Assembly: GCF_041521385.1 (NCBI RefSeq)
Contig: NZ_CP168006.1
Location: 2,320,126 to 2,355,929 of the forward strand
Length of the DNA: 35,804 bases
From: Alcaligenes faecalis
GTDB lineage: Bacteria > Pseudomonadota > Gammaproteobacteria > Burkholderiales > Burkholderiaceae_B
Direction of reading: 5' to 3'
The position numbers were made by a program, and so were the translations under genes. Positions 9,365-28,893 of the stretch are shown here, piece after piece. The notes beneath the pieces are model-generated. The model did not search any database and was not told where the DNA came from. It worked only from the letters and a program-made list of their open reading frames with translations. Position 1 is the first letter of the stretch. Each line of letters starts with the position of its first letter.

Positions 9365-9823
9365 TTACTGATCGTTGTAGTCGTGCTGCTCGGAGATCAG
9401 GCGCCGCAAGGTGGTCTTGAGGGCACCGACATCCAGTGGTTGCAGGCGCTGCACCACTTCCTGTTCGTGCAGGCGGGCCTTGGCAATCAGACCGGAGATC
9501 AGGGTTTGACCTTCTTCGGTAATACGGACCAGCGTGATGCGGCGGTCCACATCGTGGGCCACGCGGCGCAGCAAGCCCTGTTTTTCCAGTCTGTCCAGCA
9601 AGCGGGTGACGGTGGGTTGTTTGGTCGTTGCAATACGAGCCAGGTGGCCAATACTGACTTCGCCCGCGCCTGACAGGGTGGACAGGACACGCCACTCGGA
9701 AATGGACAAACCGTTGCTTAGCACCACTTCGTGGAACTCGGCAGAGATCAGTTGGCTGGCCTGGGCCAACAAGGCGGGCAGGTAGTTTTCGACAAAGACG
9801 GTGTCGTGTTCGGTGGGGCTCAT
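9365..9823 (-). CDS. MarR family transcriptional regulator (first)
   Basis: This 152-residue protein has the MarR fold. The dimerisation helices flank a winged helix-turn-helix: LSISEWRVLSTLSGAGEVSIGHLARIATTKQPTVTRLLDRLEKQGLLRR, followed by the wing DVDRRITLVRITEEG. ATG 9823 is preferred; the only longer start is a TTG 21 codons upstream that adds non-homologous sequence. It diverges from the iorAB-type operon with 199 bp between them. MarR proteins are usually repressors released by small aromatic ligands, so a role in sensing a substrate of the island is likely but inferred. Confidence 0.92.
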   Translation of the reverse strand: MSPTEHDTVFVENYLPALLAQASQLISAEFHEVVLSNGLSISEWRVLSTLSGAGEVSIGHLARIATTKQPTVTRLLDRLEKQGLLRRVAHDVDRRITLVRITEEGQTLISGLIAKARLHEQEVVQRLQPLDVGALKTTLRRLISEQHDYNDQ

Positions 9824-9894
9824 GTGCTTATTGTCGTTACAGGCTAGTGGGTGCCGCCGGGCGGCAACAGGGCTCACTATAACCAAGCTGTCCG

Positions 9895-9909
9895 TTTGCG
9901 TGTCGCAAA
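9895..9909. promoter_or_regulatory. Perfect inverted repeat in marR/iorA divergent region
   Basis: TTTGCG (9895-9900), spacer TGT and CGCAAA (9904-9909) form a perfect dyad 72 bp upstream of the first marR start. It differs in sequence from the ATATTY sites and may be the operator of this first MarR protein. Confidence 0.45.
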
Positions 9910-9947
9910 TAGTTTGCTGACTTTACTAGGGAAAACCATGAGGATGG

Positions 9948-9983
9948 ATATGTTGAGATATAAACATATTCATATGAAAATAA
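9948..9983. promoter_or_regulatory. Candidate operator(s) upstream of iorAB
   Basis: Two overlapping signals occur. ATATGTT (9948-9954) and AACATAT (9963-9969) are a perfect 7-bp inverted repeat with an 8-bp spacer. ATATTC-N6-AAATAA at 9966-9983 matches, with one deviation, the 18-bp ATATTY-N6-RAATAT element found upstream of three other operons in the island. It ends 39 bp before the iorA start, where a promoter is expected. Confidence 0.5.
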
Positions 9984-10022
9984 ATACCATGTTCACAATG
10001 AGCGGTAAGTAAGGAAAGAAAA

Positions 10023-12233
10023 ATGGCTGAGCGATCGTTTGTCGAAGAAGTCAAAAAGCTGCGCCTGGGTGATGGAGACGTATTCAGTGGCGAAGGCATT
10101 TTGGCGGTGACCAAAGCCCTGCTGGAGTCGGGCGTGTCCTACGTGGCCGGTTACCAGGGTGCGCCTATCTCGCACTTGATGGATGTGCTGGCCGATGCCC
10201 AGGATATCTTGCAAGAGAACGGAATCCGTTTTGAAAACAGTGCCAGCGAGGCAACGGCTGCGGCAACGCTGGCTGCATCGGTTAACTACCCGCTGCGTGG
10301 CGCCATCACTTTTAAAGCAACCGTGGGTACCAACGTGGCCTCGGACGCGCTGGCCAATCTGGCCTCGGGTGGGGTCAAGGGCGGTGCGCTGGTCATTGTG
10401 GGCGAAGACTACGGCGAAGGCTCGTCCATCATGCAGGAGCGTAGCCACGCGTTTGCCATGAAATCCCAGATGTGGATGCTGGACCCCCGTCCCAATCTGC
10501 CCTGTATTGTGCAAGCGGTCAAAGACGGTTTTGATCTGTCCGAAGCGTCCAACACCCCCGTGATGCTGCAGTTGCGCATTCGCGCCTGCCACGTGCATGG
10601 TCAGTTTGTGGCCTCGGATAACCGCCGTGCCAAGTTCACCATCAAAGAAGCCATGGAACAGCCCACACGCGACGTCAATCGCATTGTGCTTCCGCCTGCC
10701 AGCTTCATGCATGAAAAAGAAAAGATCGAACAGCGTTGGCCTAACGCCGTCAAGTTCATCGAAGAGCGTCAGCTCAATGAATTCTTTGCTGATGGCACCG
10801 ATGATGTGGGTCTGATTGTCCAGGGCGGTGGCTACAACACCGTGATCCGTGCGCTGGAGCACCTGGATATGGCCGACGTGTTTGGCGAATCCAAAGTGCC
10901 GATGTACGTCATGAACGTGGCCTATCCGCTGATCGAGTCTGAAATCGTCCGCTTCTGTGAAGGCAAGCGTGCGGTGCTGGTGCTGGAAGAAGGTCAGCCC
11001 AACTTTGTGGAACAGAACATCTCCGATATCGTGCGTCGTCACAATGTGGATGTCACCTTGCACGGCAAGGATCTGCTGCCACTGGCTGGCGAATACAACA
11101 CCGCCACCATGTTGAAAGGCCTGCGCGCCTTCATGGAAAAATACGAGCGCATCGAGCCTCTGCCAGCCCGCAAACCACGCGTGATTCCGATGAAAGTCGA
11201 GACCGTGGAACGTCCCAAAGCAGAACAAACCAGCTTGATGGAAGCCGAAGCGGCTGAAGTCAAACCCCTGGGCAGCCTGGACGAGAACGTTCACGCTCGC
11301 CCCCCTGGGTTTTGTACCGGCTGCCCCGAGCGTCCTATCTTTACCGCCTTGAAACTGGTGGAGCGCGAATTGGGTGAACACCACGTGTCGGCCGATATTG
11401 GTTGTCACCTGTTCTCCATTTTGCCGCCCTTCAATCTGGGTAACACCACCATGGGCTATGGCCTGGGTGGCGCTGGTTCGGCTGCCTTGAACGTGGATTC
11501 GGACAAGCGCGCGATCTCGGTGATGGGGGACGGTGGTTTCTGGCACAACGGTTTGACCAGTGGTATTGCCAACGCCGTGTTCAACCGCAGTGACAACCTG
11601 ACGATTGTGATCGACAACAGCTACACCGCGGCCACGGGTGGTCAGGACATTCTGTCCTCCAAGGCCAAGAACGAAACCCGCAGTACCGGTCACCTGATCG
11701 AGAAAGCGGCGCGTGGCGTGGGTGTGGAATGGTTGCGCATGATCCGTCGCACCTACGACTTGAAGACCATGACGGCAACCCTGCGTGAAGCCCTGACGAC
11801 CCAGGAAAAAGGTCCCAAGGTGCTGGTGGCGCAAAGCGAATGTATGTTGAACCGTCAGCGTCGTGAAAAAGGCCAGGTGCGTAAAGCCGTGGCAGCGGGC
11901 GAACGTGTGGTGCGCGAACGCTTCGGTGTGGACCCGGACACGTGTACCGGCGATCACTCCTGCATTCGCTTGTCCGGTTGCCCTTCGCTGTCGATTCGTC
12001 CCAATCCGGACGCTTTGCGTCAGGACCCCGTGGCGAACGTGATGAACAGTTGTGTGGGTTGCGGTCTGTGTGGTGAGGTTTCCCACGCGGCGATTCTGTG
12101 CCCGTCTTTCTACCGTGCACAAGTGGTCAGCAACCCGACAGGCTGGGACAAGTTCCGCGAAAAAACCCGCCGTGGCTTTATCGGCTGGTTGCAGCGTCGT
12201 GACGCTGCTCGTCGTGATCGTCTGGCCTTCTAA
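10023..12233 (+). CDS. iorA: Indolepyruvate:ferredoxin oxidoreductase-type alpha subunit
   Basis: This 736-residue protein is an IorA-type 2-oxoacid:ferredoxin oxidoreductase subunit, which decarboxylates an aryl 2-oxoacid with CoA to an aryl-CoA, passing electrons to ferredoxin. The N-terminal half is the pyruvate-synthase alpha-like domain (GYQGAPISHLMDVL). The thiamine diphosphate site is GDGGFWHNG at 502-510, with the VIDNSYTAATGG segment about 25 residues later. The C terminus carries iron-sulfur cysteines: C641, C647, C653 in CTGDHSCIRLSGCP, and C677, C680, C683, C693 in CVGCGLCGEVSHAAILCP. The first set departs from the CxxCxxC spacing of archaeal IorA. AAGGA precedes the ATG. It is the first gene of a two-gene operon with an IorB-type partner. 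In this island the substrate may be isatinate or another arylglyoxylate instead of indolepyruvate. Confidence 0.9.
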   Translation: MAERSFVEEVKKLRLGDGDVFSGEGILAVTKALLESGVSYVAGYQGAPISHLMDVLADAQDILQENGIRFENSASEATAAATLAASVNYPLRGAITFKATVGTNVASDALANLASGGVKGGALVIVGEDYGEGSSIMQERSHAFAMKSQMWMLDPRPNLPCIVQAVKDGFDLSEASNTPVMLQLRIRACHVHGQFVASDNRRAKFTIKEAMEQPTRDVNRIVLPPASFMHEKEKIEQRWPNAVKFIEERQLNEFFADGTDDVGLIVQGGGYNTVIRALEHLDMADVFGESKVPMYVMNVAYPLIESEIVRFCEGKRAVLVLEEGQPNFVEQNISDIVRRHNVDVTLHGKDLLPLAGEYNTATMLKGLRAFMEKYERIEPLPARKPRVIPMKVETVERPKAEQTSLMEAEAAEVKPLGSLDENVHARPPGFCTGCPERPIFTALKLVERELGEHHVSADIGCHLFSILPPFNLGNTTMGYGLGGAGSAALNVDSDKRAISVMGDGGFWHNGLTSGIANAVFNRSDNLTIVIDNSYTAATGGQDILSSKAKNETRSTGHLIEKAARGVGVEWLRMIRRTYDLKTMTATLREALTTQEKGPKVLVAQSECMLNRQRREKGQVRKAVAAGERVVRERFGVDPDTCTGDHSCIRLSGCPSLSIRPNPDALRQDPVANVMNSCVGCGLCGEVSHAAILCPSFYRAQVVSNPTGWDKFREKTRRGFIGWLQRRDAARRDRLAF

Positions 12234-12256
12234 GCACACCCGTAGAGATTTTTATC

Positions 12257-13762
12257 ATGCAGATCAAACCAATCAAGATTGCTATTTTGGCCATGGGTGG
12301 GGAAGGCGGCGGCGTGCTGGCCGACTGGATCGTCAACCTGGGCGAACAAAACGGCTACTTTGCACAGACCACCTCGGTGCCTGGCGTGGCCCAGCGTACC
12401 GGCGCCACGATTTACTACGTGGAACTGTTCCCGCACTCGGCCGCCGTGGATGGCAAAAAACCCGTGCTGGCTCTGATGCCCATGCCCGGTGACGTGGACG
12501 TGGTGCTGGCTTCCGAACTGATGGAAGCCGGTCGTGCCGTGCAACGTGGCCTGGTCACAGAGGACCGCACTACGCTGGTGGCGTCCACACACCGTGTCTA
12601 TTCCATTGCCGAAAAATCGGCCATGGGCGATGGCCGTGTGGACGACAATGCCCTGATTGCGCACGCAACCCAGGCAGCCAAGCGTTTTGTGTACTTCAAT
12701 ATGGAAAAAGCGGCCGAGGATTCGGGCAGCGTGATTTCCGCCGTGCTGTTTGGCGCCTTGGCCAGCACCGGCGTGCTGCCCTTTAGCCGCTCGCAGTTCG
12801 AGCAGACCATCGAACGCGGTGGTGTGGGCGTCAAGCCCAGCCTGAAAGCGTTTGGTGCCGCTTACGCCCGTGTTGCTGAAGGCGACGCCGGTAAATCTGA
12901 TTCAGAAAACAAGCCGGTTGATATGGCCACCCTGGCCCCCCGCGACCCTGCGGTGGCCAAGCTGATCGACCGCGTCCGTACCGAAGTGCCTGAACAGGCT
13001 CAGCCTATCGTGGTGGAAGGTGTGCGTCGTGTTCTGGACTTCCAGGATGTGGCCTACGCGAATCTGTACCTGGACCGCCTGAAAAAGATCAGCCAGTTTG
13101 CCCGTCCTGACGATGTGGCCCTGATCCGCGAAACCGGCCGCTACCTGGCGCTGTGGATGTCCTACGAGGACGCCATTCGCGTGGCCGAATTGAAAACCCG
13201 CTCCAGTCGTTTTGACCGTGTGCACAAGGAAGTGCGCGCTGCCGACGGCCAGATCGTGGCGATCAATGAATACATGCACCCCCGCGTGGAAGAAATCAGC
13301 GAAATCCTGCCTTTTGCCAGCGTAGGCCGTTGGCTGATGCGTCCTACCTGGGGTAACAAGCTGGTGAAATCCCAGACCAAATCCGGTCGCGTGATTCAAA
13401 CCAGCTCGGTGCGCGGTTTTATTCCGCTGTACCTGCTCTCGGGTTTCAAACGCTGGCGTCGTCGTACGCTGCGTTACCAGGCTGAGCAGCAGCGTATTGA
13501 AGGCTGGTTAAAGCAGATTGAACAGGCTGCCGATGCCCACCCGGCCCTGGCGCTGGAAATTGCCCAATGTCAGCGTCTGGTTAAAGGCTATGGCGACACG
13601 CATGCTCGTGGCTTGCGTAACTACCAGACCGTGATGTCGGCGCTGGAGCGTAACCCCAGCACCCTGTCACCTGCCATCCTGGGTGCCTTGCGTGATGCGG
13701 CGTTGGCCGACGAGCACGGCACCAAACTGGAGGCGGCACTGCGCCAGTACGCTCTGGTGTAA
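12257..13762 (+). CDS. iorB: IorB-type beta subunit with long C-terminal extension
   Basis: The N-terminal ~200 residues match the gamma/IorB domain of 2-oxoacid:ferredoxin oxidoreductases: IAILAMGGEGGGVLADWIVNLGEQNGY, then TTSVPGVAQRTGATIYYVE and VVLASELMEAGRAVQRG. Archaeal IorB is only about 200 residues, whereas this protein has 501. The extra ~300 residues are mostly helical and basic, with no recognisable cofactor motif, and probably form a domain specific to the proteobacterial enzyme. It lies 23 bp after iorA and would be the electron-transfer and CoA-binding partner. The ribosome binding site is weak (TAGAGA), so coupling to iorA translation is possible. Confidence 0.88.
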   Translation: MQIKPIKIAILAMGGEGGGVLADWIVNLGEQNGYFAQTTSVPGVAQRTGATIYYVELFPHSAAVDGKKPVLALMPMPGDVDVVLASELMEAGRAVQRGLVTEDRTTLVASTHRVYSIAEKSAMGDGRVDDNALIAHATQAAKRFVYFNMEKAAEDSGSVISAVLFGALASTGVLPFSRSQFEQTIERGGVGVKPSLKAFGAAYARVAEGDAGKSDSENKPVDMATLAPRDPAVAKLIDRVRTEVPEQAQPIVVEGVRRVLDFQDVAYANLYLDRLKKISQFARPDDVALIRETGRYLALWMSYEDAIRVAELKTRSSRFDRVHKEVRAADGQIVAINEYMHPRVEEISEILPFASVGRWLMRPTWGNKLVKSQTKSGRVIQTSSVRGFIPLYLLSGFKRWRRRTLRYQAEQQRIEGWLKQIEQAADAHPALALEIAQCQRLVKGYGDTHARGLRNYQTVMSALERNPSTLSPAILGALRDAALADEHGTKLEAALRQYALV

Positions 13763-13768
13763 AGGGTC

Positions 13769-13799
13769 ACACCGGGCCGCTTTCGGGCGGCCTCGGTGA
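13769..13799 (+). terminator. Strong GC hairpin after iorB
   Basis: CACCG/CGGTG outer and GGCCGC (13775-13780)/GCGGCC (13787-13792) inner stems form a long hairpin 10 bp after the iorB stop. There is no T tract, so it may instead stabilise the mRNA 3' end or work with Rho. Confidence 0.5.
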
Positions 13800-13847
13800 A
13801 AACCCTTGAGGACACGGATTTAACCCCCTAAATACTTTATTTCTAAA

Positions 13848-13865
13848 ATATTCATAGTAGAATAT
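13848..13865. promoter_or_regulatory. Candidate operator upstream of second marR
   Basis: ATATTC, six bases (ATAGTA) and GAATAT form a perfect dyad in an AT-rich stretch about 130 bp before the second marR start. It matches the ATATTY-N6-RAATAT pattern exactly, consistent with autoregulation. Confidence 0.55.
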
Positions 13866-13995: not shown

Positions 13996-14511
13996 ATGAA
14001 TCAAAGCGAAGCAGCACTCGAATTTTTGGTAGAGCCGGCCGATGCCGGCTTTGAAGGGCGCGTCGGCCCCAAGGACCCGGCCAGCCTGAAACTGTGGTTG
14101 CGCATGCTGACCTGCACCAAGCAGATCGAGGACGAAATCCGTCGCCGCTTGCGCCAGAATTTTGATATTTCGCTGGCCCGTTTTGATTATATGGCCCAGT
14201 TGTACCGCTACCCGCAGGGCCTGAAGATGGGTGAGTTGTCGCGCTATCTGATGGTGACCGGCGGCAATATTACCGGACTGACGGACGAGCTGGCCCGCGA
14301 GGGCATGGTGTCTCGCCAGAGCAGCCCGACAGATCGACGTGCCTGGGTGTTGCGACTGACCCCCAAGGGCAAAAGCAGTTTCGAGGCGATGGCCCAGGCC
14401 CACAGCGACTGGATTGCTGAAATGTTTGAAGGGCTGGGTACCGAGGAGGTCGTGCATATCCATCAGCATCTGGGCCTGTTACGGGTTCATCTGCAAAGCA
14501 CGGCCAGCTAG
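13996..14511 (+). CDS. MarR family transcriptional regulator (second)
   Basis: This 171-residue MarR protein has an N-terminal extension of about 30 residues, then the helix LKLWLRMLTCTKQIEDEIRRRLRQNFDISLARFDYMAQLYRY. The winged helix-turn-helix is GLKMGELSRYLMVTGGNITGLTDELAREGMVSRQSSPTDRRAWVLRLTPKG. ATG 13996 is preceded by GGGGGA; an in-frame TTG 25 codons upstream is not favoured. The gene is followed by an aryl-CoA thioesterase and then the hydroxylase operon, and it carries a candidate operator in its own promoter. It is the likely pathway regulator of the island, responding to an acid or CoA-thioester intermediate; that role is inferred. Confidence 0.92.
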   Translation: MNQSEAALEFLVEPADAGFEGRVGPKDPASLKLWLRMLTCTKQIEDEIRRRLRQNFDISLARFDYMAQLYRYPQGLKMGELSRYLMVTGGNITGLTDELAREGMVSRQSSPTDRRAWVLRLTPKGKSSFEAMAQAHSDWIAEMFEGLGTEEVVHIHQHLGLLRVHLQSTAS

Positions 14512-14519
14512 CATAAGGT

Positions 14520-14553: not shown

Positions 14554-14606
14554 GGATAGCGTCACGAACAGGCGCACAAAACACTTGCTAAAAAGGTGTC
14601 TACAAC

Positions 14607-15050
14607 ATGGTTTCCAAGCTGTACGAACAAGAACATCGCATCCGTTTTTCGGAATGCGATCCAGCGGGTATCGTTTTTTATCCGCAGTACTTTGTGATGT
14701 TTAACGACCTGATGGAAGCATGGATCGACTCCATGACCCCCGAGGGTTTTCACAACATGATCGCCAGCAAACGGGTAGGCATGCCCTCGGTGCATATCGA
14801 TGCCGAGTTCAAGTCCATCAGCCGTATGGGTGATGATGTGGTGATGAGCCTGGGAGTGGAGCGCATCGGCAATAGCTCTTTGACGTTGCTGTTGCGCTGC
14901 ATCGGTAAAGACGGTGTGTTGCGTATGCAAGTGCGCCAGACTGTGGTGACCACCTCGCTGGAGACGCACCTGGGTATTCCCATTCCTGATTTTCTGCGCA
15001 ACCCCATGCAAGCGTATGTGATTGCCCAGCCAGAAAGCAGCAAGGCTTGA
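14607..15050 (+). CDS. Aryl-CoA thioesterase, 4-hydroxybenzoyl-CoA thioesterase family
   Basis: This is a 147-residue single hot-dog domain protein. The signature FSECDPAGIVFYPQYFVMFND contains Asp18 in the D-P-A-G-I-V-F motif that provides the catalytic Asp of Pseudomonas-type 4-hydroxybenzoyl-CoA thioesterases. The rest follows the expected beta-sheet pattern. It is cytosolic and probably tetrameric by family. Lying next to a fused aryl-CoA hydroxylase and a ring-cleaving cupin that acts on free acids, it is best placed to hydrolyse gentisyl-CoA or 5-hydroxyanthraniloyl-CoA before ring opening. The exact acyl group is inferred. Confidence 0.87.
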   Translation: MVSKLYEQEHRIRFSECDPAGIVFYPQYFVMFNDLMEAWIDSMTPEGFHNMIASKRVGMPSVHIDAEFKSISRMGDDVVMSLGVERIGNSSLTLLLRCIGKDGVLRMQVRQTVVTTSLETHLGIPIPDFLRNPMQAYVIAQPESSKA

Positions 15051-15179: not shown

Positions 15180-17516
15180 ATGAATATCGTATGTATTGGC
15201 GGAGGCCCAGCCGGCTTGTATTTCGGTTTGCTGATGAAGTTGCAAAACCCTCAGAACGAGGTTTTTGTGGTCGAGCGCAACCGACCGTACGACACCTTTG
15301 GTTGGGGCGTGGTGTTCTCGGACGCCACCATGGAAAACCTGCGTGAAGCTGACCCCGTGTCCGCGCAGACCATCGGTGACGCGTTCAACCACTGGGACGA
15401 CATTGAATGCCATTTCAAAGGTAGCGCCGTGCGCTCCAGCGGTCATGGCTTTATCGGGATTGGTCGCAAGAAATTGCTGAACATCCTGCAAGCTCGTTGT
15501 GAAGAAGTGGGCGTCAAGTTGGTGTTCGAGACCGTGGTCACGGACGAAGCCGAACTGGCCCGCAAGTACAACGCCGATATCCTGATTGCTTCTGACGGCA
15601 TCAACAGCGCCATTCGTACCCGTTACGAAGACGCGTTCCAGCCTGATATCGACACCCGTAACTGCCGCTTTGTGTGGTTGGGCACGGAAAAAGTGTTCGA
15701 CGCCTTTAACTTCATCTTTGTTGAAACCGAACACGGCTGGTTCCAGGCTCACGCCTACCGCTTCCAGGACGGCCTGTCCACGTTCATCGTGGAAACGCCT
15801 GAAGAAACCTGGCAGAAAGCCGGTATTGGCGAAATGTCGCAGGAAGACGCCATTGCCTATTGCGAAAAGCTGTTTGCCGATCACCTGGATGGCAACAAGC
15901 TGATCAGCAATGCCACTCACCTGCGTGGTTCGGCCATCTGGATCCGTTTCCCACGTGTGATCTGCAACAAGTGGGTGCATTGGCAAGATTACGGCACCGG
16001 CAAGAAGGTGCCCGTGGTGCTGATGGGCGACGCCGCCCATACCGCTCATTTTTCTATTGGTTCCGGCACCAAGCTGGCCCTGGAAGATGCCATTACGCTG
16101 GCCCAGCACATGGACCATGAGTCCATGGAAGCGGCCCTGAAAGATTACGAAGCCGCTCGTAGCGTGGACGTATTGCGCATTCAGAACGCGGCCCGCAACT
16201 CGACCGAATGGTTCGAGAACGTGGCCCGTTACGCCAATATGAAGCCCGAGCAGTTTACCTACTCCATGCTGACCCGCTCGCAGCGCATCTCGCACGAGAA
16301 CATGCGCATGCGTGACGCCGCCTGGCTGGAAAAATACGAACGCTGGATGGCAACCGAAGCCGGCATGACGTTGGCTGACGGTGAAAAGGCCCCTTCGCCG
16401 ATGTTCACGCCCTTCAAGCTGCGCGATATGCAGTTGAAGAACCGTGTCGTGCTCTCGCCCACGCTGATGTACAGCGCCAAGGACGGGATGCCCGGTGCGA
16501 CACACCAGGTGCATTACGGCAGCCGCGCCATGGGTGGCGCTGGCCTGATCATGGCTGAGATGACGGCCGTGACGCCTGAAGGTCGTGTTACCCCCGCTTG
16601 TACCGGTCTGTGGAACGACGAGCAGGCCAATGCCTGGAAACCGGTGGTGGCTTTCGCCCACGAACAGGGTGCCAAGATCGGTGTGCAACTGGGCCACGCT
16701 GGCCGTCGCGGTTCGACGCAACTGGGCTGGGAAAAAGCCAATCAGCCGCTGGCTGAGGGCAACTGGCCCTTGGTGTCGGCCTCCGCCCTGCCTTACCAGG
16801 CGGGCGTCACTGCCGTGCCTGCCGAGATTACCCGTGCCCAGATGGACGAAATTCGTGACGCCTTTGTGGCCGCGGCCAAGCGTGCTGACCAGGCTGGTTT
16901 TGACTGCATCGAATTGCAGGCCGCTCACGGTTACCTTTTGTCCAGCTTCATCTCGCCGCTGACGAATCAGCGTAGTGACGAGTTTGGTGGTAGTCTGGAA
17001 AATCGCATGGCTTACCCGCTGGAAGTGTTTGCGGCTATCCGCGCCGTCTGGCCAGAGAACAAGCCCATCATGGTGCGTATCTCGGCAACCGACTGGGCCG
17101 AAGGCGGCAACACGGCGGACGACGGTGTGGAAATTGCCCGCCTGTTCAAGCAAGCCGGTGCCGATCTGATCGACGTGTCCTCGGGTGAAGTGGTGCTGGA
17201 GCAGCAGCCAATTTACGGCCGCATGTACCAGACGCCATTTTCCGACCGTATCCGTAACGAAGCCGGTATCGCCACCATGGCGGTGGGTTCGATCATGGAA
17301 GCGGATCACGCCAACAGCATTATTGCTGCAGGCCGTGCTGACCTGTGCGCCCTGTCGCGCGGCTTTTTGGCCGACGCGAACTGGCCACAACGTCAGGCTG
17401 CGGAGCTGGGTTACACCGACCTGGCCTGGCCCGTTCAGTACGAATGGGGCAAGGACTGGTTGCAGCGCCAAATCAAACGTGCGCCAGTGGCCCAGGACGG
17501 CCCTGCCAAGTCATAA
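15180..17516 (+). CDS. Fused aryl-CoA 5-hydroxylase / OYE-like oxidoreductase
   Basis: This 778-residue, two-domain flavoprotein resembles the salicylyl-CoA 5-hydroxylase and 2-aminobenzoyl-CoA monooxygenase/reductase family. Residues 1 to about 395 are an FAD monooxygenase: the dinucleotide motif [11 protein letters not shown] at the N terminus, and [22 protein letters not shown] (GD at 283-284), which contacts FAD. Residues about 405-775 form an Old Yellow Enzyme-type FMN barrel, with [29 protein letters not shown] and [27 protein letters not shown]. The expected reaction is NAD(P)H- and O2-dependent 5-hydroxylation of salicylyl-CoA or 2-aminobenzoyl-CoA; in the latter family the OYE domain can also reduce the ring. 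Sequence alone does not separate the two substrates. It heads the operon with the dioxygenase, FAH hydrolase and nitrilase. Confidence 0.88.
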
Positions 17517-22087: not shown

Positions 22088-23059
22088 ATGATGGATACTT
22101 TTGAACTCGTCATCCGGGACATCCAGAACGCATCCCCGCTGATTCGCAGTTTTACGCTCGAGCCTGCCCAGGCCGGTTCCCTGCCCGCGTTTGCGCCGGG
22201 TTCGCACCTGCAGGTACAGATTCCTGATCTGAACGATCACCGCTGCTACTCCTTGATTTCGCTGGACGCCGACACGGCACAGGGTCCGACCTGTTACCGC
22301 CTGGGCGTGCGCCTGGAAGACAACAGCTCGGGTGGTTCGCGCTTCATGCACAGCCTGAAAGTCGGCGATACCCTGCGCGTGGCTGGCCCCAAGAATGACT
22401 TCCCCTTGCATGCTGGCGCTGAAGGCGAAACCGAAACCGTGCTGATTGCCGGTGGTATCGGTATCACCCCCATTGCCAGCATGGCCGCTGCCCTGCATCA
22501 CCAGGGTCGCCCTTATCAGTTGCATTATGCGGGTCGCAGCGTGGAACAACTGGCTTTTCTGGATGAGCTGAGCGCCCTGTCCGGCCCGGCTCTGCGTCAC
22601 TATGCAGACGACAGCGAAGGCCGTTTCTGCCTGAATACCCTGCTCGACGGTTTGTCCAAGGACCAGCACATTTACGTCTGTGGCCCCAAAGGCATGATTG
22701 ACGCCGTGATCGAAGCCTGCAAGCAGCGCGGCTGGCCTGGCGACCATGTTCACTTCGAGCTGTTCGTGACGGCTGCTCCCCAGGAAGGTGACCAGCCTTT
22801 TGAAGTGGAATTGCGCCAGACCGGCGTGACCCTGCAAATTCCCGCGGACAAGACCATTGTGGACGTGATGGAAGAGCAGGGCCTGGACCCCATGATCGAC
22901 TGCAAGCGCGGCGAGTGCGGCGTCTGTACCTGTGATGTGATCGAAGGCGAGGTTGACCACCGCGACTATTTCCTGAGTGACTCGGAAAAAGCCAGCAACA
23001 AGGTTATCCAGATCTGTATTTCCCGTGCCAAGACCCCGCGTCTGGTGCTGGATCTATAA
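22088..23059 (+). CDS. Rieske oxygenase reductase (phthalate dioxygenase reductase type)
   Basis: This 323-residue flavin reductase transfers electrons from NAD(P)H to the Rieske oxygenase. Residues about 5-100 are the flavin-binding barrel, with HRCYSLIS as the flavin motif. Residues about 110-225 are the nucleotide domain, with VLIAGGIGITPIASM and VCGPKGMIDAV. The C-terminal plant-type ferredoxin has Cys272, Cys277, Cys280 and Cys310 (C-x4-C-x2-C-x29-C). This order (flavin, NAD, 2Fe-2S) is the class IA / VanB arrangement. ATG 22088 is chosen because the in-frame GTG at 21926 adds 54 residues without family similarity; the ribosome binding site (GGTAGG) is modest. It is the first gene of the seven-gene operon. 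Confidence 0.88.
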   Translation: MMDTFELVIRDIQNASPLIRSFTLEPAQAGSLPAFAPGSHLQVQIPDLNDHRCYSLISLDADTAQGPTCYRLGVRLEDNSSGGSRFMHSLKVGDTLRVAGPKNDFPLHAGAEGETETVLIAGGIGITPIASMAAALHHQGRPYQLHYAGRSVEQLAFLDELSALSGPALRHYADDSEGRFCLNTLLDGLSKDQHIYVCGPKGMIDAVIEACKQRGWPGDHVHFELFVTAAPQEGDQPFEVELRQTGVTLQIPADKTIVDVMEEQGLDPMIDCKRGECGVCTCDVIEGEVDHRDYFLSDSEKASNKVIQICISRAKTPRLVLDL

Positions 23060-23079: not shown

Positions 23080-24417
23080 ATGATGGAAAAGTATCGTGAT
23101 AATCCCCAGGCCATCCGCGAATTGGTACGCGAGGCCGAGGTCCACAAGGATTTGTACATCAACCAGGAGCTGTTTGAACTGGAGATGGAGCAGTTGTTCG
23201 CCAATACCTGGGTCTACGTTGGCCATGCCAGCCAGGTGCCCAATAAAGGCGACTTCTACACCACGACGGTCGGTACTGAATCGGTCATCATGGTGCGTCA
23301 TACCGACGACAGCATCCGTGTGCTCTACAACCGCTGCCCGCACAAAGGCGTGCAAGTGGCGGGCGAGACCTGTGGCAACACGGGCAAATTCTTCCGTTGC
23401 CCCTACCACGCCTGGACCTTCAAGACGGACGGCTCCCTGCTGTCCATCCCCTTGAAGAAAGGCTACGAGAACACCGGCTTTGAATGTACCGAAGGCAGCA
23501 AGGGCATGGCGGCGGTACAGAACGTCAAGGTGTACCGCGATTTCGTCTTCTGTCGTCTGGCCGACGAAGGTGTGAGTTTTGAGGACTTCTTTGGCGAGTC
23601 CCTGAGCACCATCGACAATATGGTGGATCGTTCCCCCGAAGGTCGCCTGGAAGTGGCCGGTGGCGTGATGCGTTACATGCACCAGTGCAACTGGAAAATG
23701 CTGGTCGATAACCAGACCGATACCTGTCACCCCATGGTGGCGCACGAGTCCTCGGCGGGTACCGCTGTAAAAGCCTGGGAAGCGGCCCCTGCGGGTACAC
23801 CCAAACCCATGGCTGTTGAATTGTTTGCCCCCTTCATGTCGCCTTACGAGTTCTACGAAGGCATGGGCATTCGCGTGTGGGAAAACGGTCACGGCCATAC
23901 TGGCGTGAGCAACTCCATCCACGCGGATTACTCCGAAATCCCCGGCTATTGGGACCAGATGGTCGAAGCTTACGGTGAAGAGCGCGCCAAAACCATTTTG
24001 GGCGATACGCGTCATAACACCTGTTACTTCCCCAACATCATGGTCAAGGGCCCGATTCAGACCTTGCGTTTGTTCAAGCCGCTGGCTGCTGACAAGACCC
24101 TGGTGGAGTCCTGGACTTTCCGCCTGGTGGGTGCGCCTGACACCTTCCTGGAACGCACCCTGATGTACAACCGCCTGATCAACGCACCGACCTCCATGGT
24201 GGGTCACGACGATCTGGAAATGTACGAGCGTGCCCAGCACGGTTTGCAGTCGCGTGGTCGCGACTGGATGAACCTGGCCCGTCTGGTGGAAAAAGACGAA
24301 GACCAGCAAAAGAACGTGGTGATCAACGGCACCAGCGAAATGCAGATGCGCGCTCAGTTCCGCGCCTGGTTGAAGTTCATGCTGCCCGAGCAGCAGGCCA
24401 AGAAAGAAGAGGAATAA
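23080..24417 (+). CDS. Aromatic ring-hydroxylating dioxygenase, alpha subunit
   Basis: This is the catalytic subunit, 445 residues. The Rieske [2Fe-2S] site is C86-x-H88 and C107-x2-H110 in CPHKG...CPYHAWTF. The mononuclear iron site lies in MLVDNQTDTCHPMVAHESS, with Asp214, His217 and His222 at the standard D-x2-H-x4-H spacing; a further Asp ligand is expected downstream. GGAG lies before the ATG; a second ATG follows directly. It dihydroxylates an aromatic substrate with O2. The best-supported candidate from context is indole-3-acetate or another indole; anthranilate, benzoate or phenylpropanoid dioxygenase activity cannot be excluded. The beta subunit follows after 2 bp. Confidence 0.93.
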   Translation: MMEKYRDNPQAIRELVREAEVHKDLYINQELFELEMEQLFANTWVYVGHASQVPNKGDFYTTTVGTESVIMVRHTDDSIRVLYNRCPHKGVQVAGETCGNTGKFFRCPYHAWTFKTDGSLLSIPLKKGYENTGFECTEGSKGMAAVQNVKVYRDFVFCRLADEGVSFEDFFGESLSTIDNMVDRSPEGRLEVAGGVMRYMHQCNWKMLVDNQTDTCHPMVAHESSAGTAVKAWEAAPAGTPKPMAVELFAPFMSPYEFYEGMGIRVWENGHGHTGVSNSIHADYSEIPGYWDQMVEAYGEERAKTILGDTRHNTCYFPNIMVKGPIQTLRLFKPLAADKTLVESWTFRLVGAPDTFLERTLMYNRLINAPTSMVGHDDLEMYERAQHGLQSRGRDWMNLARLVEKDEDQQKNVVINGTSEMQMRAQFRAWLKFMLPEQQAKKEEE

Positions 24418-24419
24418 CC

Positions 24420-24902
24420 ATGAGCGAAATCAGCCGTCAGGCCCTTATCGATTTTGTGTATGCAGAAAGCCGCCTGCTGGATGAACAGCGTTACGAGCAG
24501 TGGCTCGACCTGTTCACCGAGGATGGCTACTACTGGATGCCTCTGGCTCACGATCAGCAGGACGCCCGTTTGCATGCGTCCCTGATGCACGAGGACAAGC
24601 TCTTGCTGCGTATCCGTGTGGAACGTCTGGCAGGCCGCCGTACCTTTTCCCAGCAGCCCAAGAGCCGCAGCCATCACTTGCTCCAGCAACCGACTGTGGA
24701 AAGCATGGACGATGAAAAAGGCGAATACACCGTACGTTGCGCTTTCCATTACACGGAAACGCGCGGCGACAACCAAGATATTTACGTAGGCTGGAATACC
24801 TACACCCTGGTGCGCCAGGACGACGCCTTGAAGATGCGCCTGAAACGGGTGGATCTGCTCAATTGCGACGCGCCTTTCGGCAATATCCAGTTGTTTATGT
24901 GA
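24420..24902 (+). CDS. Aromatic ring-hydroxylating dioxygenase, beta subunit
   Basis: The small subunit has 160 residues and the NTF2-like cone fold seen in Rieske oxygenase beta subunits. Its N terminus RQALIDFVYAESRLLDEQRYEQWLDLFTEDGYYWMPL is characteristic. Near the C terminus, LVRQDDALKMRLKRVDLLNCD follows the family pattern. It has a structural role in an alpha3beta3 assembly. The start is only 2 bp from the alpha stop and the ribosome binding site (AAGAAGAGGA) lies inside the alpha gene, so the two are translationally linked. Confidence 0.93.
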   Translation: MSEISRQALIDFVYAESRLLDEQRYEQWLDLFTEDGYYWMPLAHDQQDARLHASLMHEDKLLLRIRVERLAGRRTFSQQPKSRSHHLLQQPTVESMDDEKGEYTVRCAFHYTETRGDNQDIYVGWNTYTLVRQDDALKMRLKRVDLLNCDAPFGNIQLFM

Positions 24903-24921
24903 CAGGACAGGAGAATTTTTG

Positions 24922-26553
24922 ATGGCCAACACCACGGTCTACCAGGCTTTTCGAGACACCGCCCAGAAATGGGGCGACAAGCCCTTTGTATGTACCCTGC
25001 CTGAGACCGCCGAGATCTACGGTATTGAAGCGGGCGAGCTGACTTACGGTCAGGCGCTGGAGCGTATCGACGCCTTGCGCGCCGGCTACGCTGCTGCTGG
25101 CTACGGCCACGGTCACCGCGTCGGCATCCTGCTGGAGAACCGCCCCGTGTTCTTCCTGCACTGGTTCGCACTGAACAGCCTGGGCGTGTCCATTGTGCCG
25201 ATCAACCCTGACCTGCGCGCTGCCGAGCTGGAATATCTGATCGGCCATTCGGAAATGATCATGGCCATTGCCCTGCCCAGCCGCCACCAGGATCTGCTGG
25301 AAGCGGCTCAGCGAGCCGGCCAGCCCTTTGCCATCATGGCTGATGGTGACATGCCTCCGATGGTCGAGCGCGCCGCGTGCCGCTCCTGTGACATTCCTGA
25401 TGAAAACAGCGAATGTGCCTTGCTGTACACCTCCGGCACCACAGGCCGTCCCAAAGGCTGCATGCTGGCCAACCAGTACTTCCATTACGCGGGTGAGTGG
25501 TACCGCGACATTGGTGGTCTGGCTTTGCTGGAGCATGGCAAAGAACGCATGCTGACGCCACTGCCCCTGTTCCACATGAATGCGATGGCCTGCTCGACCA
25601 TGGCCATGGTCAAGACCGGCGGCTGCCTGATCTCCCTGGACCGTTTCCACCCACGTAGCTGGTGGGATTCGGTGCGTGAATCCGGCGCAACCGTAGTGCA
25701 TTACCTGGGTGTGATGCCTGCCATCCTGATGAAGGCCGAGGCCAGCGAAAAAGACCGTCAACACAGCGTGCGCTTTGGTTTTGGCGCCGGTGTGGACCGT
25801 GGCCTGCATCCTATCTTTGAAGAACGCTTTGGCTTCCCCCTGCTGGAAGCCTGGGCCATGACAGAAACCGGCGCAGGTGCCAGCATCATCGCCAATCACG
25901 AGCCACGCCACATTGGTACTTCCTGCTTTGGCAAGGAAATGCCTGTGGTGGAAGTGCTGCTGCGTAAAGACGACGGTGAACCCGCTCAAGCCGGTGAAAA
26001 CGGCGAGCTGCTGGTGCGCTCGGCCGGTGACAACCCACGCTACGGCTTTTTCTCCGGTTACTGGAAAGACCCGGCAGCCACCGACGAAGCCTGGGAAGGC
26101 GGCTGGTTCCACACGGGCGACATCGTTTGCCGTGACGAACAAGGCTATCTGCACTTTGTGGACCGTAAAAAGAACGTGATCCGTCGCAGTGGCGAGAACA
26201 TCGCTGCCGTGGAAGTGGAAAACATCATGCAGCAGCACCCGCTGGTGCGCTCCATTGCCGTGGCCGCTGTGCCCGACGCCATCCGTGGCGACGAAGTGAT
26301 GGCGCTGGTGGTGCCCCACAACCCGATCGAAACCCAGGAACAGCGCGAACAGGCTGCCCAGGAAATGGTGCAGTGGGGTCTGACCCAACTGGCCTACTTC
26401 AAGGTGCCCGGTTACGTGCTGTTTGTGGATGCCCTGCCGCTGACTTCGACCAACAAGATTCAGCGCGGTGAACTGAAAACGGTTGCTCTGGCTGCGCTGG
26501 AAAACCCGGCCTGCGTGAACACGAATCACCTGAAAAAACGTCAGGAGGCCTAA
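24922..26553 (+). CDS. Acyl-CoA ligase (AMP-binding, aryl/fatty acid type)
   Basis: This 543-residue adenylate-forming enzyme activates a carboxylic acid with ATP and CoA. The P-loop-like motif LLYTSGTTGRPKG is at 168-180. Further motifs are the central AWAMTETGAG, then GWFHTGDIV, then DRKKNVIRRSGENIAAVEVE (hinge), and a C-terminal catalytic Lys in TSTNKIQRGEL. AGGAG lies about nine bases before ATG 24922; the TTG just before it is not favoured. It sits between the Rieske oxygenase and the thiolase-like protein, so the acid it activates is probably the oxygenated product, for example dioxindole-3-acetate, not a primary growth substrate. Salicylate or anthranilate is the alternative. Confidence 0.88.
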   Translation: MANTTVYQAFRDTAQKWGDKPFVCTLPETAEIYGIEAGELTYGQALERIDALRAGYAAAGYGHGHRVGILLENRPVFFLHWFALNSLGVSIVPINPDLRAAELEYLIGHSEMIMAIALPSRHQDLLEAAQRAGQPFAIMADGDMPPMVERAACRSCDIPDENSECALLYTSGTTGRPKGCMLANQYFHYAGEWYRDIGGLALLEHGKERMLTPLPLFHMNAMACSTMAMVKTGGCLISLDRFHPRSWWDSVRESGATVVHYLGVMPAILMKAEASEKDRQHSVRFGFGAGVDRGLHPIFEERFGFPLLEAWAMTETGAGASIIANHEPRHIGTSCFGKEMPVVEVLLRKDDGEPAQAGENGELLVRSAGDNPRYGFFSGYWKDPAATDEAWEGGWFHTGDIVCRDEQGYLHFVDRKKNVIRRSGENIAAVEVENIMQQHPLVRSIAVAAVPDAIRGDEVMALVVPHNPIETQEQREQAAQEMVQWGLTQLAYFKVPGYVLFVDALPLTSTNKIQRGELKTVALAALENPACVNTNHLKKRQEA

Positions 26554-26557
26554 GCCC

Positions 26558-27742
26558 ATGGCCTTGCCGCAAGCAGCCCGCCAGGGCTATGACGATGTGG
26601 TGCTGGTCGCCCCGGTGACCATTCCCTATGAGCGCCATTCCGAGCAGACCGCGCATTGGTGGCTGGGTGCGGCATTGGGTCAGTTGCTGGCCCAATCCGG
26701 CCTGGAAAAAGCCGATGTTGATGGCGTGTGTGTATCCAGCTTCACGCTGGGTTCGGACACGGCCGTCGGTGTGATGCAGCATTTTCAAATGAGCCCGCGC
26801 TGGCTGGACCACATTCCTATGGGTGGAGCCAGCGGTGTGGTGGCCATGCGTCGTGCGGCCCGTGCTGTGCAGTGTGGCGATGCGTCCATCGTGGCGTGTA
26901 TTGCGGGTGATACCAACCATCGTGAGTCCTTCAAGAACACGGTGTCGGGCTTTTCGCGTTTCTCGCAGGATGCCGTCTACCCTTATGGTGCCGGTGGTCC
27001 CAATGCCAGCTTTGCGCTGCTGACGGACTACTACATGCGTCACTACGGTGCCACGCGTGAAGACTTCGGCAAGCTGTGCGTGGCCCAGCGCGACAATGCA
27101 CTGCGCAATCCGCATGCCCTGATGAAAAAACCGCTGACGCTGGAACAGTACATGGAGGCGCGCGTCATTGCCGACCCCATCCACTTGTTTGACTGCGTGA
27201 TGCCGTGTGCCGGAGCCGAAGGCTATCTGGTGATGCGTCGTGAACAGGCCGAAGCACTGGGCCTGCCTTACGTGCGTATCCGCTCTACTATCGAGCGTCA
27301 CAATGCTTTCCCTGAAGACCCTGTGCAGCATCGCGGTGGCTGGGCCATGGACAAGGATGCGTTCTACGAGCATGCGGGCCTTGCCCCGGCAGACGTGGAT
27401 TTCATGGAAACCTACGATGACTACCCCGTCATCAATGTTTTGCAGTTTGAAGACCTGGGATTCTGCGCCAAGGGCGAAGGCCCGGCATTCATCCGCAAGA
27501 ACACCTTTACCGTGGATGGCAGCTTCCCCTTCAACACCAGTGGCGGGCAGTTGTCGGTAGGCCAGGCGGGTGCAGCCGGTGGTTATCTGGGTCTGGTTCA
27601 GGCGCTGCGCCAATTGACGGATACCGCAGGTGACACGCAAGTGGCCAATGCCCGCATCGGCCTGGTGTCCGGCTTTGGCATGATCAATTACGACCGTGGC
27701 ATTTGTACTGCTGCGGCCTTGCTGGAACGGGGGCAGTCATGA
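26558..27742 (+). CDS. Thiolase-like protein lacking the catalytic Cys (Ltp2/SCP-x type)
   Basis: This 394-residue protein has the thiolase fold of the SCP-x/lipid-transfer branch. At the position of the usual nucleophilic Cys it reads HIPMGGASGVVAMRRAARAV (residues 85-104), with Gly-Gly-Ala in place of the Cys-containing loop. The usual C-terminal GHP is GQAG (335-338). Instead it has a Tyr-rich motif, ETYDDYP (284-290), and Tyr343 in GGYLG. These losses are typical of Ltp2-type retro-aldolases, which use tyrosines and need a DUF35 partner to release acetyl- or propionyl-CoA from a beta-hydroxyacyl-CoA. The DUF35 gene overlaps its stop codon. An atypical thiolase of the BbsAB kind is the other possibility. 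GGAGG lies before the ATG. Confidence 0.83.
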   Translation: MALPQAARQGYDDVVLVAPVTIPYERHSEQTAHWWLGAALGQLLAQSGLEKADVDGVCVSSFTLGSDTAVGVMQHFQMSPRWLDHIPMGGASGVVAMRRAARAVQCGDASIVACIAGDTNHRESFKNTVSGFSRFSQDAVYPYGAGGPNASFALLTDYYMRHYGATREDFGKLCVAQRDNALRNPHALMKKPLTLEQYMEARVIADPIHLFDCVMPCAGAEGYLVMRREQAEALGLPYVRIRSTIERHNAFPEDPVQHRGGWAMDKDAFYEHAGLAPADVDFMETYDDYPVINVLQFEDLGFCAKGEGPAFIRKNTFTVDGSFPFNTSGGQLSVGQAGAAGGYLGLVQALRQLTDTAGDTQVANARIGLVSGFGMINYDRGICTAAALLERGQS

Positions 27743-28140
27743 GCGACACCCAAATTTTGCCACCCGGCGCACGCAGCGCCACGGCAGCCGGTCTGACCGA
27801 GGCCGCCCGGCGCGGCGAATTTGCCCTGCAAGTGTGCCCGTCCTGCGGCACGGTGCAGTATCCCGCCAGGGACGTCTGCGGCCATTGCCTGCACACCACG
27901 CTGAACTGGAAGCCGGTGGCGGACACAGGCGTGTTGCGTGCCACCACGACCCTGCATCACAGCAACGAACCCTACTTTCAGGCACGACTGCCCTGGCGTA
28001 TCGGCACCGTTGCCCTGGATTGCGGCCCTTTTGCCATCGCTCATTTGCCCGAAGGCGGGCAGGCCGATGAGAAAGTGCGCCTGAGTCTGGAGCTGGATGC
28101 TGGCGGCGTAGCCGTGCTGGTGGCGCGTCCTGCGCCCTGA
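27739..28140 (+). CDS. DUF35 zinc-ribbon / OB-fold CoA-binding partner
   Basis: This is a 133-residue protein with an N-terminal rubredoxin-like zinc ribbon, CPSCGTVQYPARDVCGHC (Cys33, Cys36, Cys47, Cys50), followed by an OB fold that includes LPWRIGTVALDCGPFAIAHL. DUF35 proteins are obligate partners of Ltp2-type aldolases (as in ChsH2) and of BbsB-type thiolases (as BbsA), where they bind the acyl-CoA. The ATGA overlap with the thiolase-like gene indicates translational coupling and a stoichiometric complex. The Zn site is complete. Confidence 0.9.
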   Translation: MSDTQILPPGARSATAAGLTEAARRGEFALQVCPSCGTVQYPARDVCGHCLHTTLNWKPVADTGVLRATTTLHHSNEPYFQARLPWRIGTVALDCGPFAIAHLPEGGQADEKVRLSLELDAGGVAVLVARPAP

Positions 28141-28161
28141 ATTTGCCTGGAGACAATCAAG

Positions 28162-28893
28162 ATGACACAAGCTCAATACACCGCCATTGTGACGGGCGGA
28201 AGCACCGGTATTGGTGAAGACATTTGCCGCAAGATGCTGGATCAGGGTTACACCGTGATCAGCATGGCGCGCAATGTACTGCCCTGGACGCACGAGCGTC
28301 TGCATTGCGTGCAGGTGGACTTGCTGGATGCCGTGGCAACCGAGAAAGCCGCCAAGGATATTGCCGAGCGTTTTGAAGTAACCCACTTCATCCACAATGC
28401 CGGCGTGATCTGGCCAGCCCTGCTGGACGAGGTCAAGTTGGAAGACTTGCAGGGCCTGACCCAGATTCACCTGGGTGCGGCCTTGCAAATTACCCAGGCG
28501 GTGGTGCCTGGCATGCGCGAACGCCATTTTGGCCGCATCGTGCTGATGTCCTCGCGTGGCGCACTAGGCCTGCAAACCCGTACCGCCTATGCCGCGACCA
28601 AGGCGGGCATGTTGGGCATGGCTCGCACCTGGGCGCTGGAACTGGCTGACCAGGGCATTACTGTCAACGTGATTGCCCCCGGCCCCATTACTACCAATAT
28701 GTTCTACGACGTGGTTGAAGCCGGTAGCGAGCGTGAAGCCAAGCTGGCGGCCGCAATTCCTGTGAAGCGCCTGGGCCGTGCCGATGACATCAGCCGCGCC
28801 ACGATGTTCTTCTCGGACCCTGAAAACAGCTTCATCACGGGCCAGACCTTGTATGTTTGCGGTGGTGCCAGCGTGGGTACGCTGACGATTTGA
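28162..28893 (+). CDS. Short-chain dehydrogenase/reductase
   Basis: This 243-residue classical SDR has TGGSTGIG at 11-18 for nucleotide binding, HNAG at 78-81, Ser130/131, and the Y-x3-K pair Tyr143/Lys147 in AYAATKAG. The C terminus, FITGQTLYVCGGASVG, is standard. The cofactor-specifying residue after beta strand 2 (SMARN) suggests possible NADP(H) use, but this is weak. It is the last gene of the Rieske operon. A role oxidising the cis-dihydrodiol made by the Rieske oxygenase would fit, and for an indole substrate this would give a 2-oxindole. Reduction of a keto intermediate is the alternative. Confidence 0.9.
   Translation: MTQAQYTAIVTGGSTGIGEDICRKMLDQGYTVISMARNVLPWTHERLHCVQVDLLDAVATEKAAKDIAERFEVTHFIHNAGVIWPALLDEVKLEDLQGLTQIHLGAALQITQAVVPGMRERHFGRIVLMSSRGALGLQTRTAYAATKAGMLGMARTWALELADQGITVNVIAPGPITTNMFYDVVEAGSEREAKLAAAIPVKRLGRADDISRATMFFSDPENSFITGQTLYVCGGASVGTLTI

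Follow-up and report, generated by a model that had tools for sequence, protein, structure and literature searches.

An iad-type auxin locus of Alcaligenes faecalis, probably joined to an isatin module with a proposed route through 2-aminobenzoyl-CoA

Introduction

How do bacteria that degrade the auxin indole-3-acetate (IAA) proceed beyond isatin? The question is raised by a gene cluster in a stretch of 35,804 nt from the 4.15 Mb chromosome of Alcaligenes faecalis (G000:C1:2320126-2355929, where G000 is our label for the genome; hereafter the window), in which homologues of the published iad auxin-degradation genes stand together with genes for a thioesterase, a fused hydroxylase, a cupin, an FAH-family hydrolase and a nitrilase. 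Published iad work stops at anthranilate (PMC9613470, PMC12633357; all literature is cited from the accessible parts of the texts), and in those parts the lower half, including IadAB, is given no reactions. The first-pass annotation of the window had read the cluster as a complete aerobic IAA route via isatin and 2-aminobenzoyl-CoA. The gene set and the upper, iad half of that claim stand; the lower chemistry we infer. We consider it likely (probability about 0.74) that an iad-type IAA operon is joined here to a complete isatin module, with the lower route proposed below.

Results and discussion

Gene content and proposed route

Gene families were assigned with Pfam and NCBIfam, and these scans located every family named in the first-pass annotation. 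The genes that carry the argument are:

10023..12233, plus strand: IadA, IorA-type thiamine diphosphate (ThDP) subunit with a ferredoxin-like C-terminus (TIGR03336, 298 bits, cut-off 651; TPP_enzyme_C)
12257..13762, plus strand: IadB, IorB-type subunit with DUF6537 (NF006179, 706 bits, cut-off 348)
14607..15050, plus strand: 4HBT_2 hot-dog thioesterase (Pfam)
15180..17516, plus strand: aryl-CoA 5-hydroxylase with an old-yellow-enzyme half, 2-aminobenzoyl-CoA monooxygenase/reductase type (NF006101, 1307 bits, cut-off 1078)
16917-16919: Gln580 codon of the fused hydroxylase
17538..18662, plus strand: gentisate-dioxygenase-like bicupin, proposed 5-hydroxyanthranilate ring-cleavage dioxygenase (TIGR02272, 315 bits, cut-off 442)
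18758..19681, plus strand: FAH-family hydrolase (PF01557)
19694..20725, plus strand: nitrilase-superfamily C-N hydrolase, proposed to act as amidase on the ring-cleavage product (PF00795)
20973..21761, plus strand: IadI, isatin hydrolase (PDB 5nmp, E=1e-138; 4j0n, E=1e-79)
22088..23059 (frame from 21926), plus strand: IadC, Rieske reductase (Pfam/NCBIfam)
23080..24417, plus strand: IadD, Rieske oxygenase alpha subunit (PDB 9o71, E=1.4e-180)
24420..24902, plus strand: IadE, Rieske oxygenase beta subunit (PF00866)
24922..26553, plus strand: IadF, acyl-CoA ligase (PF00501/PF13193)
26558..27742, plus strand: IadG, Cys-less thiolase-fold protein, proposed retro-aldolase (library matches and alignment)
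27739..28140, plus strand: IadH, stand-alone DUF35 protein (zinc ribbon and OB fold), proposed IadG partner (PF12172, PF01796)
28162..28893, plus strand: IadJ, short-chain dehydrogenase/reductase (SDR) (library matches)

In the proposed route, IadCDE and IadJ would convert IAA to dioxindole-3-acetate, as published for Variovorax and transferred here by homology. IadF would form the CoA ester, IadG-IadH would split dioxindole-3-acetyl-CoA into acetyl-CoA and isatin in a retro-aldol reaction, and IadI would open isatin to isatinate (2-aminophenylglyoxylate). Oxidative decarboxylation of isatinate by IadAB would then give 2-aminobenzoyl-CoA with no ATP spent. The fused flavoenzyme is predicted to hydroxylate C5, leaving, with Gln580, an aromatic product from which the thioesterase would free 5-hydroxyanthranilate. 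The cupin would open the ring between C1 and C2 to the amide maleamylpyruvate, the FAH hydrolase would release pyruvate and the nitrilase-fold enzyme ammonia. Finally, a maleate-isomerase-like protein from another part of the genome would turn maleate into fumarate.

The upper half is of the known iad type

By sequence match, the upper genes belong to the published type of iad locus, and Alcaligenes is listed among the iad genera (PMC9613470). IadD finds the IadDE structure of Variovorax paradoxus CL14 (9o71; PMC12633357) far ahead of the next other protein (4e-42); IadE was identified by Pfam alone. IadI groups with solved isatin hydrolases and not with KynB (4cog, E=3e-4), which settles an assignment that had been left at isatin hydrolase/KynB family. 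The kinship with published iad loci, which the first-pass annotation could not claim, is thus borne out by the IadD and IadI matches, and by iad homology we propose that the window's strain degrades IAA. The isatin hydrolase shares 97 % identity with the A. faecalis AU14 protein.

According to a 2025 preprint (PMC12633357), the Rieske enzyme IadCDE behaves as a monooxygenase, hydration and the dehydrogenase IadJ yield dioxindole-3-acetate (C10H9NO4), and anthranilate formation needs IadF, G, H and I. Of the earlier proposal that Rieske oxygenase plus SDR give dioxindole-3-acetate, the product therefore holds, and the mechanism changes to monooxygenation followed by hydration and IadJ. The SDR motif YxxxK is kept in all 31 aligned IadJ sequences. 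Variovorax rebuilt with iadC-K2, a region that excludes iadAB, accumulates C8H7NO3 and C7H7NO (PMC12633357); by our own arithmetic these are the formulae of isatinate and 2-aminobenzaldehyde.

The window shares homologues of IadR, IadA, IadB and IadC-IadJ, and the isatin route, with the iad loci of V. paradoxus CL14, Achromobacter and Bradyrhizobium. It differs from these loci in the following: the thioesterase, hydroxylase, cupin, FAH and nitrilase genes lie inside the cluster, IadH consists of DUF35 alone, and a tripartite ATP-independent periplasmic (TRAP) transporter replaces the ABC system with IadK2.

IadG-IadH as a proposed retro-aldolase

The first-pass annotation had proposed a retro-aldol step by a Cys-less thiolase-like protein with DUF35. 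The thiolase Cys column is Gly in 47 of 47 aligned IadG copies, including that of the window, and IadG matches the Ltp2-type structures 9myr (E=1e-49) and 6ok1 (E=6e-37). The aldolase chemistry of Ltp2, and the function of the Ltp2-ChsH2 DUF35 pair (PDB 6ok1) as a steroid side-chain aldolase, are known. IadG-IadH shares with this pair the Cys-less thiolase fold (as judged by sequence match), the adjoining DUF35 gene and the proposed cleavage of a tertiary beta-hydroxyacyl-CoA, although the match to 6ok1 is distant and the substrate would be dioxindole-3-acetyl-CoA.

IadH carries an extra C-terminal domain of ~250-270 residues in 38 of 47 other loci, an SDR domain in all three that were scanned, and is DUF35 alone in the remaining nine, as in the window. 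YxxxK is retained in just two of the 38 extra domains. Judging by how the genes are ordered in L043, L046 and L052 (L numbers denote loci), the IadH of CL14 would likewise be such a fusion. A reading of IadH as a reductive alcohol dehydrogenase (PMC12633357) was therefore rejected. Since the extra half is absent from nine loci and from the window and its YxxxK motif is mostly lost, we read IadGH as an aldolase that would free isatin and acetyl-CoA, and the retro-aldol proposal gains support from the missing thiolase Cys and the Ltp2-like pairing with DUF35. No reductase is required for isatin release of this kind; the dioxindole of mutants could have arisen by reduction of isatin.

IadAB accompanies isatin hydrolase outside auxin loci

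Scanning genomes with IadI yielded 148 relatives; the analysis kept to the 80 best loci (L001-L008 were not used). A locus was called auxin-type if it held at least one of iadD, iadF, iadG and the DUF35 gene above set identities; 46 of the 80 loci were auxin-type and 34 were not. IadA and IadB were both present in 21 of the 46 and in 14 of the 34. The genes iadA and iadB have been called exclusive markers of iad-like loci (PMC9613470); the window has both, but their presence in the 14 non-auxin loci means that they are not exclusive.

StyA-like oxygenases occurred in four of these 14 loci (L020, L040, L041, L042); in the two whose families were checked (L040, L042) they scored under the StyA equivalog cut-off. 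The combination of StyA-like oxygenase, isatin hydrolase and IadAB recurs in genome G299 (L101), and genome G204 carries StyA and IadI on one contig and IadAB with ring genes on another. IadA, IadB and IadI are separated by 48-517 bp in L044, L055 and L059, where the other queried genes are all missing. The plasmid operon L148 holds, in order, IadAB, thioesterase, hydroxylase, cupin, FAH, nitrilase, Asp/Glu racemase, MarR and isatin hydrolase; its 20 kb contain no auxin gene. Among 300 Burkholderiales genomes, IadB was found in 37, IadI in 14 and both in 12 (E<=1e-60; Fisher p=1.6e-10); the two genes are 0.2-8.1 kb from each other in nine of the 12 genomes and on different contigs in three. 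Because isatin hydrolase and IadAB co-occur in loci without auxin genes, IadAB probably acts after isatin hydrolysis.

Phenylglyoxylate ferredoxin oxidoreductase turns an aryl 2-oxo acid into its CoA ester by oxidative decarboxylation. Indolepyruvate ferredoxin oxidoreductase shares this type of reaction, and IadA falls far under the cut-off for its alpha subunit equivalog (TIGR03336). The C-terminal IadA motif C-x-GDH-x-C was present in 16 of 16 aligned copies; its Asp stands where Cys is usual in such cluster motifs. In open-access texts, PMC9613470 was the only paper we found on indolepyruvate ferredoxin oxidoreductase together with isatin.

IadAB-like genes with 45-57 % identity, where measured, also lie near a gentisate dioxygenase and an alpha/beta hydrolase in L089-L092; L089 and L091 carry TRAP transporter genes as well, suggesting a related pathway. 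On a Deinococcus plasmid, a cyclase-family protein and a ThDP enzyme (L150:16360-18773) follow a ligase-type hydroxylase operon, and this ThDP enzyme is possibly a non-oxidative isatinate decarboxylase.

IadAB takes the place of a ligase beside the fused hydroxylase

Forty-three full-length relatives of the fused hydroxylase were present in 42 of the 300 Burkholderiales genomes, and nine of 10 genomes of the window's genus have one. Among the 29 with at least 55 % identity, IadAB adjoined three, a ligase-like gene 21, neither five and both none (Fisher p=0.015); among the 14 with less than 55 % identity, five had a ligase-like gene and none IadAB. For three ligase-like genes that were scanned, the closest family was that of benzoate-CoA ligase (341-364 bits, cut-off 375). 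A strict rule of ligase or IadAB, never both, had to be dropped, as L073 holds the two together. The conversion of isatinate to 2-aminobenzoyl-CoA, a suggestion of the first-pass annotation, thus finds support from comparative genomics, in that IadAB accompanies isatin hydrolase outside auxin loci and stands in the ligase's place.

These counts bear on another possibility, that the iad locus ends at anthranilate, that IadAB does some other task (e.g. indolepyruvate to indole-3-acetyl-CoA) and that a separate genomic ligase activates anthranilate for the hydroxylase. Anthranilate is the published end product, iadC-K2 suffices for it, and it is made even by the rebuilt Variovorax without iadAB; PMC12633357, as far as accessible, assigns iadAB no reaction. 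A ligase of the same family, sharing 59 % identity with the L105 ligase, is also encoded in the window's genome, close to a MarR gene (G000:C1:1648956); one stop is flagged in its aligned stretch, but the gene reads through as a single frame of 555 codons. Anthranilate could therefore also feed the hydroxylase. The 14 non-auxin loci with IadAB and isatin hydrolase, four of them with StyA-like genes, offer no obvious place for indolepyruvate, however, and IadAB replaced the ligase-like gene beside three of the 29 hydroxylases, without overlap. We regard an end at anthranilate as distinctly unlikely. A lone benzoate-CoA-family ligase lies near a MarR gene and an argJ-like gene at L145:8948-11854; this Alcaligenes gene may be a remnant, because the similar neighbourhood L104 holds an operon of ligase, enoyl-CoA hydratase, SDR and hydroxylase.

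As to the hydroxylase itself, the family given in the first-pass annotation, a fused aryl-CoA 5-hydroxylase, is right, and can be refined: NF006101 matches at full length, and the second half is an old-yellow enzyme. We propose 2-aminobenzoyl-CoA as its substrate from the gene context. Relatives lie near kynureninase (L153) or near tryptophan dioxygenase and kynureninase (L156), and so point to anthranilate chemistry. In Arthrobacter Rue61a, two ligases confirmed by expression as anthranilate-CoA ligases are paired with putative 2-aminobenzoyl-CoA monooxygenase/reductases, and such an enzyme is reported to give 5-hydroxyanthraniloyl-CoA when NADH is limiting (PMC3534580). The Azoarcus evansii pathway shares the fused hydroxylase/old-yellow enzyme and the CoA thioester chemistry; there the CoA ester comes from a ligase, and ring reduction is followed by beta-oxidation (PMC4539516), whereas the window has IadAB for the ligase, Gln580 at the reductase site and a cupin afterwards. 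Relatives of the thioesterase also adjoin beta-oxidation-type hydroxylases, so that its role in this route is a prediction.

NCBI names the window's hydroxylase salicylyl-CoA 5-hydroxylase, and the cupin resembles gentisate dioxygenases, as if a salicylate operon (salicylyl-CoA to gentisate) had merely been inserted into the iad locus. Yet no salicylate ligase was recognised in the cluster, and in Burkholderia, Caballeronia, Pseudomonas and a Bacteroidota species the same genes occur together with isatin hydrolase and/or IadAB. With the kynureninase neighbours and a cupin below the gentisate cut-off (see below), these other partners led us to reject the salicylate operon as the leading interpretation, and we now think it highly improbable.

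Apparent loss of the ene-reductase site

In the first aligned set of reductase halves, residue 580 was Gln in 13 of 13 copies beside a cupin, and the five alignments shown to solved old-yellow enzymes have His in this column. A tree of 68 hydroxylase rows was built without the trait columns, with the near-duplicates L010 and L011 left out; Gln580 was found in all 14 ring-type rows and His in the other 54. Non-ring here means that no cupin was in the available piece, and L012 and L109 end early. Hydroxylases covered to less than 90 % (L016, L018, L054) were left out of the first alignment and of a fuller tree, L016 being added later. It ends inside a Gln580 hydroxylase, and overlapping sequence, in which the match is in two pieces, shows a cupin immediately after it. 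For L018, its genome has a cupin beside a hydroxylase at coordinates that fit, with no overlap as proof. Ten hand-picked plasmid loci, a later addition chosen among the 40 listed of 356 records, followed the pattern (two with cupin, Gln580; eight without, His).

In the fuller tree the twelve ring-type rows from Proteobacteria group together (100/99), nested within the ligase-type enzymes. Gln580 takes two changes on the tree, and a single ring-type clade is rejected (p-AU 0.0024, quick tree), so that the residue apparently has two origins; the second is less sure than the p-AU suggests, as it is based on L042 alone, a long branch. In the window's enzyme the conserved ene-reductase site has His replaced by Gln580 and Met by Thr428. 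As a mark of all ring-type hydroxylases Thr428 fails (13 of 14), since L042 keeps Met428 and Lys510. With Gln580 at the ene-reductase site, that activity would be lost and the hydroxylated product should stay aromatic. An active-site residue lost in step with the adjoining ring-cleavage gene gives a clear genomic signature of a pathway switch in a bifunctional enzyme.

Ring cleavage and the nitrilase

The cupin had been annotated as gentisate-type. The resemblance is real, its nearest solved structure, 3bu7, being named gentisate dioxygenase (E=6e-173), but its TIGR02272 score lies under the cut-off, compared with 547 bits for the canonical gentisate dioxygenase of L089. By our own chemical reasoning, a C1-C2 opening of 5-hydroxyanthranilate in the manner of a gentisate dioxygenase would leave an amide, and from this an amidase and maleate handling are predicted.

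A nitrilase-fold gene accompanies the cupin in 10 of the 11 cupin loci of the 80-locus set; the eleventh (L020) ends early, and overlapping sequence shows the nitrilase. It also does so in L095 and L148. In L042, L095 and L148 the nitrilase joins the cupin and FAH genes where no auxin genes were seen. A role as indole-3-acetonitrile nitrilase is made unlikely by this company, and the substrate of the enzyme is probably the product of ring cleavage. L095 and L042 have Asp/Glu-racemase-family genes next to the ring genes, with 67-72 % identity to the one in L148. The library names for this family are EutA (under cut-off), Amdase or Asp_Glu_race; we take the genes of L148, L095 and L042 to be maleate-isomerase-like. 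In L095 and L148 the gene is directly beside the nitrilase, and the window's genome holds a homologue elsewhere (61 % identical to that of L148). Its presence in three operons fits an amide ending as maleamate, maleate and fumarate.

Older schemes suggest a different ending, in which 5-hydroxyanthranilate is deaminated to gentisate, the cupin cleaves gentisate and the nitrilase has a nitrile, for instance indole-3-acetonitrile, as its substrate. For Alcaligenes spec. In3, a path from indole via isatin and anthranilate to gentisate was proposed in 1983, and Nocardia opaca was described as forming 5-hydroxyanthranilate and then gentisate (reviews PMC6221969, PMC4539516). Among solved structures, the nitrilase comes closest to nitrilases and cyanide hydratases, and the cupin to the gentisate dioxygenase named above. 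No deaminase was recognised in the cluster, however, and the nitrilase recurs in the three loci where no auxin genes were seen, twice with an adjoining maleate-isomerase-like gene. Deamination thus seems rather unlikely, and we keep to direct cleavage of 5-hydroxyanthranilate.

Several further observations, besides the second ligase, the rebuilt Variovorax, the NCBI name and the structural neighbours of cupin and nitrilase, weigh against the joined route. IadAB is lacking in the pieces of 25 of the 46 auxin-type loci, some of them truncated, and 25 of the 37 IadB genomes have no IadI at E<=1e-60. L073 has both IadAB and a ligase, and some IadAB-like pairs accompany a canonical gentisate dioxygenase (L089-L092). 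Cupins occur without an adjoining nitrilase (L093, L097, L149), and L103 has a maleate-isomerase-like gene at ~7 kb distance from a hydroxylase of the ligase type. In the open-access literature, with supplementary files outside reach, we found no published assay of the lower enzymes; nor did we find such a lower-route gene set in print there.

A probable link to indole

A locus of porin, SDR, StyA, StyB, CrtI and AraC genes lies at ~2371308-2377637, ~15 kb past the window (L146:16309-19900, L147:1-3637), so that the genome can probably make isatin from indole. This StyAB-type locus has no isatin hydrolase, IadAB or hydroxylase of its own, and the genome has one IadI match (E<=1e-60) and one hydroxylase match (E<=1e-150). 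The window's isatin module would thus serve indole too. StyAB-type (iif-like) indole clusters share isatin hydrolase with the window, and those of L020, L040-L042 and L101 also IadAB; they differ in a flavin oxygenase upper pathway, with no Rieske oxygenase or IadF-type ligase seen.

We lean, with some reserve, towards a wider picture: a mobile isatin module would be shared by auxin and indole degradation, with an IorAB-type enzyme in place of an ATP-using ligase, an ene-reductase site lost twice, and an amide led to maleamate, maleate and fumarate. The auxin degradation of root bacteria would then extend past anthranilate and join indole catabolism at isatin, and iadA and iadB, the markers of iad-like loci, would have a testable role. 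If true, an aromatic amine would here be degraded aerobically by a new route, and the gene set behind the gentisate-like Alcaligenes indole metabolism of 1983 would be identified; the gene for the gentisate route was called unrevealed in a 2018 review (PMC6221969).

Regulation, transport and flanking genes

The remaining features of the unit are:

9365..9817, minus strand: IadR-type MarR repressor (MarR Pfam; PDB 7kki, E=6e-42; 7kfo, E=1e-41)
9948..9969: candidate operator for MarR in the iadR-iadA gap, an inverted repeat (ATATGTT-N8-AACATAT) read off the sequence
13996..14511 (frame from 13921), plus strand: second MarR regulator (Pfam MarR)
31014..34132, plus strand: TRAP transporter DctQ-DctM-DctP, candidate for auxin uptake (families judged from the translations by eye)

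The repressor gene diverges from iadA, as expected of an iad-like locus. Its two best PDB matches, out of 32 at E<=1e-5, are 7kki and 7kfo, which we take to be Variovorax MarR_73. MarR_73 binds between iadR and iadA (PMC9613470), where the window has its candidate operator. A scan for promoters and terminators found them no more often than in shuffled sequences. The operon unit probably extends through the TRAP transporter to 34132, because DctM at 70 % identity or more occurs in 10 of the 80 iadI loci, all auxin-type.

A major facilitator superfamily (MFS) transporter on the minus strand and a MerR regulator (28932-30862) separate IadJ from the TRAP genes. The pair looks like an insertion, because the gap between SDR and DctQ is only ~0.6 kb in L009. 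A. faecalis AU14 has the same gene order from iadA to TRAP minus this pair. A sulfatase-family gene and a TctC-type binding protein lie directly upstream of iadR (6331-9146). In L012 and L014, two isatin-hydrolase-like genes per locus (59 % and 77-78 %) flank the SDR and TRAP genes. Very similar transposases, both presumably of IS110 type, lie ~15 kb apart, one after the TRAP genes (34670-35698) and one just before the indole locus (L146:14794-15852).

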